A stretch of DNA of 64,000 nucleotides, from the NCBI RefSeq assembly GCF_015169395.1, contig NZ_CP063458.1, forward strand, positions 2,046,001 to 2,110,000, in the 5' to 3' direction. The translations under genes and the position numbers were made by a program. This DNA comes from Humisphaera borealis. Lineage in GTDB: Bacteria > Planctomycetota > Phycisphaerae > Tepidisphaerales > Tepidisphaeraceae. The notes under the pieces were generated by a model that saw only the letters and a program-made list of their open reading frames with translations, was not told the origin of the DNA and ran no database searches. Positions 11,002 through 64,000 of the stretch are shown in pieces (position 1 is the stretch's first letter; every line of letters begins with the position of its first letter).

Positions 11002-11490
11002 TCACGGGTTGCCGCTTTTTGCCGGGCGCTCGACCACGACGACAAGCTGCTGCAGCATCCTCGTCCAGCCGAACTCGGCACCGGCAAACGCCTGCGGGCC
11101 GAAGGGCTGCGACAGGTCGAAGCCGGCGTGCTCGAAGAGCAGTCGGGTGCCGTCGCCGTCGGGCATCAGCCGAAAGCTGACCTGGGTGTTCTCGACCGGT
11201 CCGCCGGCCGACCAGGAGAAGACGAGCCGGCCGCCGACATCTGTGCCGGCCGCACCTTCCGCCGGCGGTTCGCATTCCAGCACCTGGCAGCGGACGGTCA
11301 GACCGTTGAAGTTCGCCTTGGGGTTCCCCGGCACACGAAACGTGAACGCATGGCCGACGCGTGGCTGAAAGTCGTTGGGGAACATCCACTCGGCCAGCAC
11401 GGCACTGTCAGTGATCGCCTGCCAGACCTGCGCCCGCGGCTGCGGGATCAAGATCTCTTTTTGAATGGTTCGGTTCATTCCCTGGCTCAT
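11002..11490 (-). CDS. AHSA1/SRPBCC domain protein, 162 aa
   Basis: START-like ligand-binding fold of the AHSA1 (activator of Hsp90 ATPase homologue) family. Visible blocks are PRAQVWQAITDSAVLAEWMF near the N-terminus and LLFEHAGFD plus W near the C-terminus. The start codon overlaps the stop of the ArsR gene by 4 nt (ATGA at 11490-11487), with GAGGG upstream, so translation is probably coupled. ArsR-AHSA1 pairs are common in bacteria; the ligand is unknown. It is probably repressed by the adjacent ArsR protein through the palindrome at 11831. Confidence 0.87.
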   Translation of the reverse strand: MSQGMNRTIQKEILIPQPRAQVWQAITDSAVLAEWMFPNDFQPRVGHAFTFRVPGNPKANFNGLTVRCQVLECEPPAEGAAGTDVGGRLVFSWSAGGPVENTQVSFRLMPDGDGTRLLFEHAGFDLSQPFGPQAFAGAEFGWTRMLQQLVVVVERPAKSGNP

Positions 11491-58906: not shown

Positions 58907-58990
58907 GGGTGGCATGGGCAACAGTACTCGGTTGCCCGTGTCGAACGTCGGACCGCGATTACCACTGGCAAGCGGGTACGCTTGCCAGTG
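58907..58990. repeat. REP-like double-hairpin palindrome, copy 2
   Basis: Starts GGGTGGCATGGGCAACAGTACT like copy 3. The first hairpin is kept, and the second, CACTGGCAAGCG-ggta-CGCTTGCCAGTG, has changed bases on both sides so pairing is preserved. The right terminus TTGCCCATGCCACCC is lost. The intI remnant's coding frame ends right beside it (58991). Confidence 0.8.
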
Positions 58991-59155
58991 CTAGGCGCCC
59001 AGTTCTGGCCCGCGCAGTTCGCGCGGGTGCCGCCACTGCCCGTTGACGCGGTGGAAGCGAAGAAAGTCTTCGATCCAATCGCGGTAACAGGTGATCGTGT
59101 TGGCGGCGAGATGCCGGAGTTTGGCTGTCCGATGAAAGGATTCCATGACCCGCAT
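58991..59155 (-). pseudogene. integron integrase (intI) remnant, N-terminal 52-55 codons only
   Basis: Read on the minus strand from ATG 59146 (or ATG 59155): LRHLAANTITCYRDWIEDFL and RFHRVNGQWRHPRELRGP. This is the SAM-like core-binding start of integron-type tyrosine recombinases (compare the IntI pattern R..H.S..TE..Y..WI..F..FH...HP.E.G). A stop at 58991-58993 ends it after 52 codons against about 320 in full IntI, and the remaining catalytic domain (R, H-x-x-R, Y) is missing. The break abuts the REP copy at 58907-58990. Confidence 0.75.
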
Positions 59156-59293
59156 AAAACCCTAACTACCGATCAGCTTTCGCGGCGTCAATAGAAATGT
59201 CGGAATATTGACAGATGGAGGGACGAACGTAGGTTATGATTCGGCGGGTCGGGGGCGCTCCCTGATCCGCGGATCAGGGAATTCTAGTTATGC
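59156..59293 (+). other. candidate attI region of the integron
   Basis: The stretch between the intI start and the first cassette. It ends in GTTATGC (59287-59293), the consensus GTTRRRY core where a first cassette joins attI, 10 bases before the start codon of the first cassette gene. It contains a short perfect palindrome, CCCTGATCCGCGGATCAGGG. The attI function is inferred from position only. Confidence 0.45.
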
Positions 59294-59303
59294 AGCGGGG
59301 GCA

Positions 59304-60167
59304 ATGGTGACTCGCACATCGTCTCTCATTGTCGGACTCGTCACCGCCGTCGTCGGCTGCGGAGACCGGTCGTCTAGCCCACGAAGTCCAGTAGCGACAG
59401 CGCCGTCATCAGTCGAAGCCCAGTCCACGTCAGCGCCGGCGACGCAGTCTGCCTCGGCTATTCGCTGGCAGTCGCTCCCGTCGCCGACGCCCGAAGAATA
59501 CGCGCGGATCGTCGAAGCGTGCATGGACTACGCCCCGGCTCCCGACATGATCGTTCTTACTCAAGACGGTTATGAGGGCGATCGCTTAAGGTTGAAGCCG
59601 CCGAACCCGAGCTACCGCATTCCCGACGGCGGCGGGACGACTGCCTTCGCGCCACCGGAATGGGAGGCGTTGAACCCAACGCCGCCGATGAGCGGCATCC
59701 ATCGTGCCGGTTCGTACGGTTCCCTCATCTTCATGCATGCCCGCAAGACGCCCGAAAAGCGCGAGCTGCTTGCGGTGGTCACTTGGCCACACTACAGCGG
59801 CTCGTACGGCCTCCGCGTGACCCTCGTCGAGTTGGACCGAAACGATCCTGGCAAGCGGCGCGAGGTAACAACCTTCGCCGTTCCTCGCGGGGTGTTGCTT
59901 GCCGCAGCCGATCCGCAGCCGGGCCTTGGCGTGGTTCAGCAGTTGCAGTTCTTCGCCGGGCAGCCTGACTCGAAAGACGAATCGGCATGGACCATCGGCT
60001 ACACCGTCGCCGCTGATCGAAATGCAAAGCCGCTGCCCGGGTTGATCCAAATGAAACTTACGGGAGAGCCGGAGTTGGCAAAGCACGATTGGCCCATGCG
60101 GCACCAAGGGAAGGTGCCGATGCAGATCTCGGTGCAGCGTCCGAACGGCACAGTGTGGACGAACTGA
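59304..60167 (+). CDS. cassette 1: predicted lipoprotein of unknown function, 287 aa
   Basis: Start MVTRTSSLIVGLVTAVVGCG with a VVGC lipobox (Cys19); GGGGG lies just before ATG 59304. An Ala/Ser/Pro stretch follows, then a folded domain with SPTPEEYARIVEACMDYAPA, LKPPNPSYRIPDGGGTTA and HRAGSYGSLIFMHARKTPEK, a mostly beta-strand outline. No known family. As the first cassette gene behind the candidate attI, it would use an upstream promoter, as cassette genes usually do. Confidence 0.65.
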   Translation: MVTRTSSLIVGLVTAVVGCGDRSSSPRSPVATAPSSVEAQSTSAPATQSASAIRWQSLPSPTPEEYARIVEACMDYAPAPDMIVLTQDGYEGDRLRLKPPNPSYRIPDGGGTTAFAPPEWEALNPTPPMSGIHRAGSYGSLIFMHARKTPEKRELLAVVTWPHYSGSYGLRVTLVELDRNDPGKRREVTTFAVPRGVLLAAADPQPGLGVVQQLQFFAGQPDSKDESAWTIGYTVAADRNAKPLPGLIQMKLTGEPELAKHDWPMRHQGKVPMQISVQRPNGTVWTN

Positions 60168-60183
60168 CGGCGGCACGGCCGCT

Positions 60184-60284
60184 GCATAACCCGGCAATGC
60201 AACGGACCGTGCCGGCGGTATAGTTTCTGGTGATCGTGAGCCGTGCGTGCGCCGGCTAGGCCGTTGATCGCCACTACGTTAGGC
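60184..60284 (+). other. attC recombination site 1
   Basis: 101 bases. R'' GCATAAC (60184-60190) and R' GTTAGGC (60278-60284, matches GTTRRRY). L'' GGCAATGCAACGG pairs with L' CCGTTGATCGCC except for one unpaired G (GCAAT-G-CAACGG), the extrahelical base expected in attC bottom strands. Inner arms GCCGGCG / CGCCGGC extend the stem. Confidence 0.72.
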
Positions 60285-60307
60285 GGCAAAGAGCTATCCG
60301 AGAACCG

Positions 60308-60880
60308 ATGGCAATGGAAGCCGCAAAGCCACTCGCATTTCCGGTCCCGTTCCCCGACGGGCCCATGTGGCTCTTGACGTGTGATGCCTCGCCCGAGGCA
60401 GCGGCCGAGAAGCTCGGTCCGCCGATGCTCACCGACTGGGTCGATGGCCTTGGTAACGCTGATTTTTGGGCCTTCGAGTTTCCATGTGGGTTGCAGGTCG
60501 CGTTTGAGTTTTTGCAGACCTCCAAGTCTGGGCGAGTGGTTGCGGATTCGCCTGAAATAGATCACGTCCTTCGACACATTCCATTTTCCGCTTCTGAGTG
60601 TGTAAGGATTGATGAGACTGCCCTGCACTCGGAACTGGAGCGGCTACTCGTAGCGTGCCCGGAGCGAAAGTCCAAGATCGAGTCGCTCCATTCGTTCCAA
60701 GTCTGGCGCCAGGGTGATGACGGCAACGCATTCCGAGTCGGCGACGCAACCAGTGAACGAGATGCGAAGTGCTGGGTTCGGCATCTCGAGTCGCTCGGTC
60801 ATAAGCAACTGTATTGGTACTCGCCTGTTGGTCGTGTGCCGCCGATCACAGCCGGTGCAACTGAAGACACTGCCGGATAA
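60308..60880 (+). CDS. cassette 2: protein of unknown function, 190 aa
   Basis: ATG 60308 is 24 bases after the attC core. No leader or membrane helix. Distinct strings are PLAFPVPFPDGPMWLLTCDA, GLGNADFWAFEFPCGLQV and FQVWRQGDDGNAFRVGDA, then CWVRHLESLGHKQLYWY. No family recognised. Its stop codon TAA lies within the R'' box of the second attC (60875-60881), the tight packing typical of integron cassettes. Confidence 0.62.
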   Translation: MAMEAAKPLAFPVPFPDGPMWLLTCDASPEAAAEKLGPPMLTDWVDGLGNADFWAFEFPCGLQVAFEFLQTSKSGRVVADSPEIDHVLRHIPFSASECVRIDETALHSELERLLVACPERKSKIESLHSFQVWRQGDDGNAFRVGDATSERDAKCWVRHLESLGHKQLYWYSPVGRVPPITAGATEDTAG

Positions 60881-60974
60881 CCCGCCGATGCACCGGACCG
60901 GGCCGGCGGTATAGTTCCTGTCGGGCGAGCGCGGCTCGGTGCGGGCCCGGCCGGTGATCGGCACTACTTTATGT
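60875..60974 (+). other. attC recombination site 2
   Basis: 100 bases, closely related to site 1. R'' GGATAAC; L'' GCCGATGCACCGG pairs with L' CCGGTGATCGGC except for one unpaired G. The far core reads TTTATGT where GTTATGT would be expected, so the recombination core may have mutated. CCGGCGGTATAGTTCCTG is shared almost word for word with site 1. Confidence 0.62.
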
Positions 60975-60991
60975 GGGCGGAGCAAGTCGGC

Positions 60992-61531
60992 ATGCGACGA
61001 GTCATTCCACTGATCGCAGTAGTCGCCGTGGCCGCCGTCGTTTGGTTCGCAACGGGGAACAAAATGTCATCCGATGATTCGATTGAGTACCAAGGCCAGG
61101 CCGTAAAGTTAAGCAAGCCTTACGGTGACTACGACGACTACAAGAACGACCCGAACAACCTCGCCCCGGGCGAAGCTGGGAAAGTGCAGCAACTCGTCCA
61201 GTCGGCACCGATCGCCAAGCAGTTCTCAAGCCGTGAACTGATGATTCATGCGGTCTTCGCTTTGAAGTTCCCCGGCTATGGCTTGGGTTCCTACGGGGAG
61301 AAGCCACAGCCGGACAACTCGGTGCTAGCGTTGTTTGGAGTCGAGATCCCCAAGTCCGGCAACTCCCGCTACCTGCTCTTCCGCGGAACCGGCGGTTTGT
61401 ACACGCTCATTGACGACTTCGTGTATGCCGACTCTGCGGCGATCGGCGGCGTCTCCGAGAATGGCGACAAGTTCGTGTACTCCACGATGCAAGGCGCGAA
61501 AGTGCTGGAGCGTTCGCCCTCGGTAAAGTGA
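60992..61531 (+). CDS. third array gene: membrane-anchored protein of unknown function, 179 aa
   Basis: Start MRRVIPLIAVVAVAAVVWF, a single N-terminal helix or signal anchor; GGAG lies about 9 nt upstream of ATG 60992. Then a polar exported domain with KLSKPYGDYDDYKNDPNNLA, SRELMIHAVFALKFPGYG and LFGVEIPKSGNSRYLLF. No family recognised. It follows attC2 by 18 nt as a cassette gene would, but no attC is seen after it, so the cassette is truncated or the array ended here. Confidence 0.6.
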   Translation: MRRVIPLIAVVAVAAVVWFATGNKMSSDDSIEYQGQAVKLSKPYGDYDDYKNDPNNLAPGEAGKVQQLVQSAPIAKQFSSRELMIHAVFALKFPGYGLGSYGEKPQPDNSVLALFGVEIPKSGNSRYLLFRGTGGLYTLIDDFVYADSAAIGGVSENGDKFVYSTMQGAKVLERSPSVK

Positions 61532-61668
61532 CGGGCAGAGAAAGCGGGACAGCAGCGTAAGCCGGACAAGCAGGGTAAGCCGGATAGATCCAGTTCTTCC
61601 GACAATGCAATTTGACCCGTCCCGTCCTCTGCGGCCCGGATTGAGGTCATGTCAGGCGAGGCGACGCC

Positions 61669-62013
61669 ATGCCAACAATCGAAGCCAAGCGTAAAGCGGT
61701 CAATGAACGCATCGGTTCGCTGGAGCGTGCGATTCGTATTGCAAGGGAGTATCTGGAGAGCGGCATGCATGCGGCGTGGCTGGGGTTCCGCCCGCTGTTC
61801 GGCCGCGGTGCGAACCTGCCGCCTCACAAGGACTGGGTGAAGAACGTCTTCTTACGCCGGAGGGAGAAGGCGCTGGCGGAGGCGGAGAAACTCCTCCAGA
61901 GACTCGACGACCAGGAACGCGATCGCGTGCGCGGGAACCATGCGCGGTCGTCTTCCTCCGGCGGGTGGCATGCCCGCGGTGTTTCGGGTGCCATGTCCAC
62001 GCCGCGAGATTAA
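61669..62013 (+). CDS. small unknown protein whose 3' end reads into repeat A, 114 aa
   Basis: GGCGAGG lies about 8 nt before ATG 61669. A helical, Lys/Arg/Glu-rich protein: RKAVNERIGSLERAIRIARE, LGFRPLFGRGANLPPHKDW and RREKALAEAEKLLQRLDD. The last ~18 codons (SGGWHARGVSGAMSTPRD) come from the 181-bp repeat beginning at 61960, so the natural C-terminus may have been near 61960 before the repeat arrived. No family recognised. Confidence 0.5.
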   Translation: MPTIEAKRKAVNERIGSLERAIRIAREYLESGMHAAWLGFRPLFGRGANLPPHKDWVKNVFLRRREKALAEAEKLLQRLDDQERDRVRGNHARSSSSGGWHARGVSGAMSTPRD

Positions 62014-62140
62014 TGTTGGACGTCGTGGACGTCTCCCGCGTGGGCATGGTGTTCGGTGACCGATGACATCCGCCCCATGCCCACGCGGGATACGTGCTGC
62101 CAGCCGAACGCAACGCGGCGGCGTGGGCATGGCACACGGC
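61960..62140. repeat. 181-bp palindromic repeat, copy A
   Basis: Contains nested stems: inner CCCGCGTGGGCATGG / CCATGCCCACGCGGG (perfect, 62035-62049 with 62075-62089) and outer GTGCCATGtCCACGCCGC pairing with GGCGGCGTGGGCATGGCAC. A second copy (B) of the same 181 bp, about 91% identical by eye and without gaps, lies at 62602-62782. Confidence 0.8.
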
Positions 62141-62146
62141 AGGAGC

Positions 62147-62596
62147 ATGCAGTTGAGTGATGACTTTTCCATCTGGATGTCGTACTTCGGCGACAACCGC
62201 CCGACGGACGAAGTCGTCGAAAGCCTGGCTCAACTCACGGCAGAGTTCAGGTACTGCATTGTTTATGGCGGAACGCGGCGATTACTTCAGGACCGCGGAA
62301 TCGATCCAATGTGTTGTGTTCTTCTCGGCGTCCATCCCGGGGACGATGTAGCACTGGAGTTGATGCTTCCGGATGGAAGCGTGGTCGAATTCGAGTCGCG
62401 GGATGATCCTTTGACTCGCGAGCACATCGAGCTCGTCGGATGGACGTCCGCAGTTGGCGATAAGCGGAACGTCAGAATCGCACGCGCGCATTGCACGGGC
62501 GAACGGGAGAGCGAGTTCTCAAAAGTTGTATACGCGCGCTACGTCCAGTATTGGGAGGACGGCGACGCGCCGCTGCGACCGAAACCTGCACGGTAG
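62147..62596 (+). CDS. unknown protein between the two 181-bp repeats, 149 aa
   Basis: AGGAG at 62141-62145 is almost against ATG 62147; TTG 62153 has a better 7-nt spacing, giving 147 aa. Blocks: LSDDFSIWMSYFGDNRPTDE, AEFRYCIVYGGTRRLLQD and PMCCVLLGVHPGDDVALELM. A globular protein of no recognised family. Its stop is 5 nt before repeat B, and both repeats are in direct orientation around it, so the unit looks like a mobile cassette (inference). Confidence 0.55.
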   Translation: MQLSDDFSIWMSYFGDNRPTDEVVESLAQLTAEFRYCIVYGGTRRLLQDRGIDPMCCVLLGVHPGDDVALELMLPDGSVVEFESRDDPLTREHIELVGWTSAVGDKRNVRIARAHCTGERESEFSKVVYARYVQYWEDGDAPLRPKPAR

Positions 62597-62601
62597 GTTT
62601 C

Positions 62602-62782
62602 GGCGGGTGGCATGTCCGCGGTATCTCGGGTGCCATGCCCACGCCGCGAGATTAATGTTGGACTTCGTGGACAACTCCCGCGTGGGCATGGTTCTCGATG
62701 ACCGATGCCGTCCGCCCCATGCCCACGCGGGAATCGTTCTGCCAGCCGAATGCAACGCGGCAGCGTGGGCATGGCACACGGC
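62602..62782. repeat. 181-bp palindromic repeat, copy B
   Basis: Same length as copy A with about 17 substitutions and no indels by eye. Direct orientation. The inner stem CCCGCGTGGGCATGG / CCATGCCCACGCGGG is unchanged. Confidence 0.8.
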
Positions 62783-62797
62783 GAGATGTCTGAGTTC

Positions 62798-62887
62798 GGG
62801 TGGCATGGGCAACAGTACTCTGTTGCCCGTGTCGAACGTCGGACCGCGATCGCCACGGGCGAGCGGGTACGCTTACCCATGCCACCG
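62798..62887. repeat. 90-bp REP-like double-hairpin palindrome, copy 3
   Basis: GGGTGGCATGGGCAA at the left and TTACCCATGCCACC at the right, with the ACAGTACTCTGTTGCCC inner hairpin kept. It shares GAGATGTCTG immediately upstream with copy 2, so the two copies have extended homology. Confidence 0.82.
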
Positions 62888-62918
62888 GGACGTCGTGGCA
62901 TCGGCTTGGCCTACCCCA

Positions 62919-62970
62919 CAAAAACGGCCGTGCGGACTGCCGAATCTGGCAATCCACACGGCCGGTTTTT
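62919..62970. terminator. bidirectional terminator downstream of the alpha-2-macroglobulin gene
   Basis: AAAACGGCCGTG pairs with CACACGGCCGGTTTTT around a long loop, with A and T runs on both sides, so it can terminate minus-strand transcripts from the macroglobulin gene. A further palindrome GGTGGGATGAATCCCACC lies at 62982-62999 beside its stop codon. Confidence 0.65.
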
Positions 62971-62999
62971 CTACGCGATTCGGTGGGATGAATCCCACC

Positions 63000-64000
63000 C
63001 TACCGGGGGGCTTCGACCGCCTTAGGGGCGTCGACGATGCTCAGCTTCCCTTCGTCGCTGTTGGCTTTCAGTTCCGGGGCGTACATGGCGCTGGCTTTGG
63101 TCGGCAGCGCGCTGAACTTGCCTGGGATTTCGGCCCGCAGCTTGTAGCTGACGCTGTGCTTGCCTCGGGCCAGCGTGCGGGCGAAGAACGCGACGCGCTC
63201 GTCGCGGAACTCTACGTAGGCGTTGAGGTCGTTGCCGTTGTAGCCGCTGCGGACCTCGACGGGCTCGAAACCGGCCGCCTTCATGTCTTCAAAGATCAGG
63301 TACTCGTAGTCGTTCTTGGAGTCGATCTCCATTTCGACTTCGACCAGATCGCCGCTGACCAGGACGTCGCCGTCTTTGAGTTCCTGGCGTTCGAACTTCT
63401 CGACGCGCTGGTCGAGCGCCTGGCCGCGGCCGCCTTCGACCTTGATCGTCTTCTTCACGGACACCAGCTTGTAGAACTTGCGCTGGACCTTCACTTCAAG
63501 CCCCGCCTTGGTGATCGGGTCTTCCAGGGTGAAGTTGGTGACGTAGGCGTTGTAGTAGATCGGGCCGGTGCCGGTCTTGCGGATCTCGACCTTGTGCTCG
63601 CCGTCTTTCACTTCGGGCCCGCCGAGGACGACCTTGTTGTCGAAGCTGAAGAGGTTGGTCTTGTCGATCTTCACTTCCTTGGTTTTTACGCCGTCGACGA
63701 GGACGGTGACGGTGAGGTTCGGCGAATCTTCGCCGCTGGCCTTGATGAACTCGGCGAGCGCTTCGATCGCCGTGCCGGTTTCGCGGGTGCTGCCCCAGTA
63801 GCTGGCGTGCTTGCGGTTGTTGATGATGTACTTGGCCAGCTGCGAAGGCAGATCGGCCTTGGCATCGGTGCGGCTCAGGAGCTTGAGGTACCAGGAGTGG
63901 GCCTCAATGTCGTTGCCGTACCAGCACCACCAGTAGTTGCCTTCCGGCGGCATCCGCAGGAACGCCGACTGGTTCTCGCCGTCCTTCACGACGTACTGGC
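63000..64000 (-). CDS. alpha-2-macroglobulin family protein (C-terminal part, 5' end outside the window)
   Basis: Minus-strand gene still open at the window edge; the GTG at 63989 is only an internal codon. The visible ~330 residues begin in the helical thioester-type toroid ([40 protein letters not shown]). They then run through the C-terminal macroglobulin domains ([36 protein letters not shown], ending PKAVEAPR). Bacterial alpha-2-macroglobulins are large periplasmic protease traps. The thioester Cys-Glu-Gln would be upstream. A terminator follows its stop. Confidence 0.85.

Follow-up and report, generated by a model that had tools for sequence, protein, structure and literature searches.

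The window analysed here, a stretch of 64,000 nucleotides from Humisphaera borealis (genome positions 2046001-2110000; the genome is 7,189,892 bases in one contig), carries the beginning of an integron integrase gene on the minus strand and, running away from it on the plus strand, an attI region and three genes separated by two attC sites. The integrase remnant (58994..59155, minus strand; open frame 58991-59155) encodes 54 aa, which correspond to residues 1-54 of a full-length integron integrase (about 333 aa). This N-terminal sixth is the SAM-like N-terminal domain of a tyrosine recombinase, and it scores above the Pfam gathering threshold for Phage_int_SAM_4 (31.1 bits, E 3e-7). Its best NCBIfam family is TIGR02249, the integron integrase (21.2 bits versus 12.4 for XerA), and only IntI homologues have an N-terminus like it. 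Over 53 residues it shares 75% identity with a complete IntI encoded 3.9 Mb away in the same genome. The initial annotation had called this frame a minus-strand fragment of an integrase N-terminus and had allowed that a non-IntI recombinase might match it better; the stub proves closer to IntI than to any Xer, and the identification holds. The IntI catalytic residues and the IntI-specific insertion (alpha-I2) are deleted. None of the remaining ~280 residues of the truncated gene was found in the genome, which counts against our account of the locus in that it leaves no means of reconstructing the deletion.

At the DNA level the two intI genes cease to be homologous at window position 58999, a few bases from a palindromic repeat of about 90 bp with two hairpins (58907..58986), recognized by repeat finding and from the junction sequence. 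This repeat adjoins the cut end of intI, in agreement with the earlier description of the locus as lying among palindromic repeats. Repeat finding located a second copy in the window at 62797-62890, and the genome holds at least 76 matches (both strands of the same places counted) at no fewer than about 40 places, a lower bound with 40 of 144 candidates scored. It is the position of the repeat that suggests it took part in the intI deletion. A second kind of palindromic repeat is present in two 182-bp copies that are 91% identical (61959-62140 and 62601-62782), on either side of a gene at 62063-62596; its relatives adjoin cassette remnants elsewhere (L161, L162).

Next to the stub lies the attI region (59156..59293, plus strand), delimited by alignment with the intact integron, with its crossover core GTTATGC at 59287-59293. 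The 14 bases TAGTTATGCAGCGG are identical in the two integrons, lie at an equivalent distance from the integrase start codon in both, and mark where the first cassette begins, so that what had been proposed as a candidate attI core can be accepted as one. A perfect 22-bp palindrome (59259-59280) directly precedes the core in the window and is absent from the attI of the intact integron. In a relative (G010), a sigma-70 promoter points toward the cassettes (TTGACA-N18-GATAAT), whereas a search of the window for such a promoter found none; we therefore do not claim that the stub has been retained for its promoter.

attC sites and cassette genes

The two attC sites were scored with a covariance model, R2, for which we used 12 attC sites, all of them from other genomes. 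It replaced an earlier model, R1, which was built from five attC sites of the same genome and used to find sites in family members; R1 included the window sites and was thus circular. The first site, attC1 (60184..60284, plus strand; R'' GCATAAC, R' GTTAGGC), scores 89.3 bits with R2 (E 9.5e-24), and the second, attC2 (60875..60974, plus strand; R'' GGATAAC, R' core TTTATGT), scores 84.0 bits (E 3.5e-22), compared with 18.8 bits for the next-best match in the whole 64-kb window. The model has a covariation score of 0.386 versus 0.148 +/- 0.019 when shuffled and at most 0.076 when slid, and 13 of its pairs show changes on both sides. Both sites had been suggested from the sequence as attC-like, with the proviso that covariance scores might turn out no better than those of shuffled sequence; they stand far above background.

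We also used a structural scan that requires R-box complementarity and two extrahelical bases and uses no family model. Beside intI genes of many phyla it made 47 matches versus 2 in reversed controls (209 kb), and in the window its sole match is attC1, which has complementary R'' and R' boxes, a GTT core, L boxes and extrahelical bases on one arm, everything asked of an attC. attC2 escaped the scan because its crossover core reads TTT instead of GTT (60968-60970), the conserved G having been lost. attC2 is 93% identical to the attC of the intact integron, and we infer that with this mutated core it recombines no longer. Folding, which the initial annotation had recommended, agrees with attC1, but as a single sequence attC1 is not separated in energy from shuffled DNA (z -0.8), which counts against our account. 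Rfam at gathering scores detects nothing in the window, and the pattern RYNTAAC-N-GTTRGGY was dropped as an attC detector after it gave 9 matches versus 63 in the control.

Cassette 1 runs from crossover to crossover at 59288..60278 (plus strand), as delimited by homology to another genus of the family (G004): window 59280-60281 aligns over 1003 nt at 89.2%, from the attI core to the end of attC1, and the flanks are unrelated. The 12 bases at its start match exactly, as reverse complement, the last 12 up to R'', and the single cassette of the intact integron has 12-base reverse-complement ends likewise. The cassette 1 gene (59304..60167, plus strand) encodes 287 aa of no known family with a lipoprotein-like signal sequence (lipobox by eye). 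It occurs in 4 of the 397 class genomes sampled, all within the family, and the homologues in three other genera are 88%, 88% and 74% identical. One of these copies (G003) begins at the 3' half of another attC, and another (G025) sits in a group of three attC sites. Since G025 and H. borealis have IntI proteins of only 63% identity, cassette 1 has probably moved between lineages. A dN/dS of 0.19-0.21 between the window gene and the other copies shows that the gene is under purifying selection and has been useful.

Cassette 2 (60279..60968, plus strand) has ends that match over 4 bases only, and it is therefore mutated or a fusion. Its gene (60308..60880, plus strand) encodes 190 aa of no known family. 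A 3'-truncated copy in another cassette cluster (genome 4678700-4678984) is 82% identical over 96 aa, with dN/dS 0.09 and dS ~0.9 for the pair. Beyond attC2 lies the remnant of a third cassette (60969..61531, plus strand) with a gene of 186 aa. Like the first cassette of G010, it starts with TTATGTGGGCGG, and its start codon lies inside the core. Its own attC has been lost: R2 finds none downstream of the gene in the window, and an end like the CCGCCCACATAAC of the G010 cassette is missing from 61400-63900 at up to 3 mismatches. The initial annotation had spoken of plus-strand genes of unknown function, which remains apt, as none of the three cassette proteins, that of cassette 1 included, has a match in Pfam above cut-off, PADLOC or PHROGs. 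For those cassette genes that were searched against plasmids and viruses, no relatives turned up, and the predicted structures for cassettes 1 and 2 (mean pLDDT 44 and 43) were left unused. In two cassettes (window 60971; L031:10406) the reading frame opens at the ATG within the recombination core TTATG, and the sequences suggest that the crossover site may supply their start codon.

Integrons elsewhere in the genome and in relatives

Searching the whole genome for another intI and for further attC copies, as the initial annotation had advised, turned up a complete intI accompanied by an attI and one cassette of its own, and about 18 attC-like sites in addition to those of the window. The complete IntI (genome 6021273-6022271, minus strand) is 333 aa long and free of stops, scores 347.5 bits against TIGR02249 (cut-off 265) and aligns with residues 14-325 of the VchIntIA structure 2A3V. 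In that alignment it keeps the catalytic R, K, HxxR, H and Y as well as the IntI-specific insertion (alpha-I2). R1 and R2 agree on a total of ~20 attC-like sites at ~12 genome places. Both models find clusters of four sites at 5.095-5.097 Mb, three at 0.574-0.576 Mb, two at 4.160-4.163 Mb, and two, one of them partial, at 3.811-3.813 Mb; the other places are the intact integron, the window locus and single sites. At 162 kb there is a perfect single cassette that begins with GTTATGCCTCTTC and ends with GAAGAGGCATAAC, and many of the other sites are degenerate or interrupted by insertions. The organism is thus not integrase-free: beside one complete integron it has many loose ends. The earlier statement that the window genes are stranded without an integrase is accordingly right for the locus and wrong for the genome.

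Two kinds of rearrangement accompany these sites. The intact integron is flanked on both sides by a 150-bp direct duplication (88% identical; L031:8736-8885 and 11267-11415) that takes in the rsmH (mraW) 5' end; the integron looks as if it had come by the duplication or had caused it. An IS110-family element of about 1.6 kb, in copies 94% identical, interrupts attC sites at one and the same position, between R'' and L'' (genome 4160566-4160665, 4162666-4162764 and 7164238-7164336; L034, L165); three right and two left junctions were seen, and its transposase (L034:10023-11243) matches Pfam Transposase_20 with 80 bits. The element is reminiscent of the IS1111-attC group, in this case in a host that is not a proteobacterium.

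Relatives show the same arrangement. The R1 search of family members placed attC sites beside IntI in several of them, and G010 has a complete integron of the same type with seven attC sites directly downstream of intI. Two of the three nearest named intI carriers are metagenome genomes of Phycisphaerae or Phycisphaerales, which points to a planctomycete in or near that class. In G004 we find intI residues 1-73 only, cut beside tandem TTCGCGCACACC repeats (L059:10360-10578, contig 5 end), with no other IntI match at E 1e-20; contig 59 of that genome holds an attI-like site, the window's cassette 1 and three attC sites, and no intI. A contig filed under Methylococcaceae (L081, CADDYU010000222.1) encodes an IntI 58% identical together with four attC sites of the same family, an occurrence that reflects either horizontal transfer or mis-binning.

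Readings of the locus

We consider it nearly certain that the locus represents what remains of a chromosomal integron, consisting of an IntI stub, attI and an array once of at least three cassettes, much as the initial annotation's phrase "decayed integron" had it. This reading builds on the IntI remnant, the attI core, the attC structure, the intact second integron, the cassette homology limited by core sites, and the purifying selection on cassette genes. The full-length TIGR02249-type integrase of a complete integron is present in the second integron at 6.02 Mb and reduced to residues 1-54 at the window locus, which does have attI beside intI, intI oriented opposite to the cassettes, and cassettes bounded by attC sites. 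With two attC sites, a truncated intI and no functional integrase nearby, it falls under CALIN or integron remnant (at least two attC sites). In the history that we propose, the integrase that loaded the array would have made a hairpin of each attC bottom strand and joined it at attI. At some later point intI would have been cut after codon 54 at the palindromic repeat, leaving behind the N-terminal stub, the attI site and an array then of three or more cassettes, and local capture would have stopped for lack of an integrase. Cassette 1 is complete, with intact core sites at both ends, cassette 2 ends at an attC with a mutated R' crossover core, and gene 3 is without attC. Cassette 1 could still be movable in trans by the intact IntI at 6.02 Mb, which we infer to recognize the sites of the window locus. 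It counts against this history that among relatives no empty or intact version of the exact site was found; the flanking gene occurs in only two other family genomes.

It is also possible, if on balance improbable, that the array is still alive, with the intact IntI at 6.02 Mb excising and inserting cassettes here in trans and one integrase serving a dozen scattered sites. One might expect as much from a stop-free 333-aa enzyme with its aligned catalytic residues kept, from an attI core identical in both integrons and from the likeness of attC2 to the attC beside the intact IntI. The two versions of cassette 2 in different clusters and the perfect-ended single cassette at 162 kb also speak for exchange within the genome. 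However, the core G is gone from attC2, many other sites are degenerate or insertion-bearing, and the dS of ~0.9 between the cassette 2 copies means that their exchange is old. The broader notion of a dispersed integron, in which one working integrase acts in trans on ~20 attC sites at about a dozen places, extrahelical cytosine is the rule, and cassettes are sown through the chromosome instead of being stored in one array, strikes us as a little less probable still.

Far less credible is that the cassettes inserted at non-attI (attG) sites next to an integrase fragment unrelated to them, as described in other work (PMC12444791, PMC12901181), so that the stub is there by coincidence. Elsewhere in this genome there are indeed lone cassettes and clusters that lack intI, but the spacing and orientation of the stub relative to the 14-base attI core are equivalent to those in the intact integron, and its N-terminus is confined to IntI homologues. 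That the attC sites are ordinary palindromic intergenic repeats with ordinary genes between them, in a genome full of such repeats, can be dismissed almost entirely: the sites have cores, complementary R boxes and, on one arm, two extrahelical bases six apart, their pairing is supported by covariation, cassette 1 travels as one piece from core site to core site, attC sites flank IntI in several relatives, and the R2 scores and the core-to-core homology of cassette 1 already contradict it.

Known systems and the extrahelical cytosine

The locus belongs to known kinds, the integron pseudogene and the CALIN. The initial annotation had regarded a truncated integron as a rarely seen end stage, which does not agree with the literature: an early survey found nearly a third of intI genes to be pseudogenes and more than one intI in a fifth of integron-bearing genomes (PMC2426708), CALINs were by 2022 about as numerous as complete integrons (PMC9024848), and several Xanthomonas species as a rule combine an inactivated intI with conserved arrays and distant CALINs (PMC12444791). 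Like sedentary chromosomal integrons with an inactivated intI, such as the Xanthomonas ilvD locus (PMC12444791) and other intI pseudogenes (PMC2426708), the window locus combines a truncated intI with a retained attI and short array and cassette genes of unknown function. It differs from the ilvD type in its planctomycete lineage, in a cut point at a palindromic repeat and in the intact paralogous integron elsewhere in the genome. With CALINs it shares two attC sites that have no functional integrase beside them, in a genome with other clusters of one to four sites. Unlike a CALIN, it still has the intI stub and attI, and many of the genome's clusters are single sites, below the default reporting threshold. 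What is out of the ordinary is the complete decay series in one chromosome and the cassette exchange shown among genera. One closed genome outside the usual Proteobacteria combines an integron that is intact, another that is truncated and still has complete cassettes, cassettes standing alone and attC sites half destroyed, and the same cassette occurs at unrelated places in four genera of one family.

In model systems the extrahelical pair is T and G. The initial annotation had reported an extrahelical G in both window hairpins; this is correct for the top strand, but the recombining bottom strand has cytosine as its second extrahelical base. All 12 of the relatives' sites and both window sites read T-N6-C on the bottom strand. 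R and L boxes, an unpaired central spacer and two bottom-strand extrahelical bases six apart are otherwise as in the attC sites of the VchIntIA, IntI1 and IntI3 studies (PMC2727003, PMC3053210), from which the C distinguishes the present ones. Larouche and Roy found that C raises excision by several integrases, being tolerated or favoured, and in 2011 one natural example was known (PMC3053210). Naturally fixed T-N6-C hairpins allow this laboratory observation to be tested on a native integrase with the sites that belong to it. In other environmental integrons the structural scan finds C at least as frequent as G (24 versus 8 clear cases). We rejected the idea that extrahelical C is peculiar to this lineage, as it is found beside intI loci of Beta- and Deltaproteobacteria too. 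Within the lineage, T-N6-C is the rule and not an oddity of the window locus.
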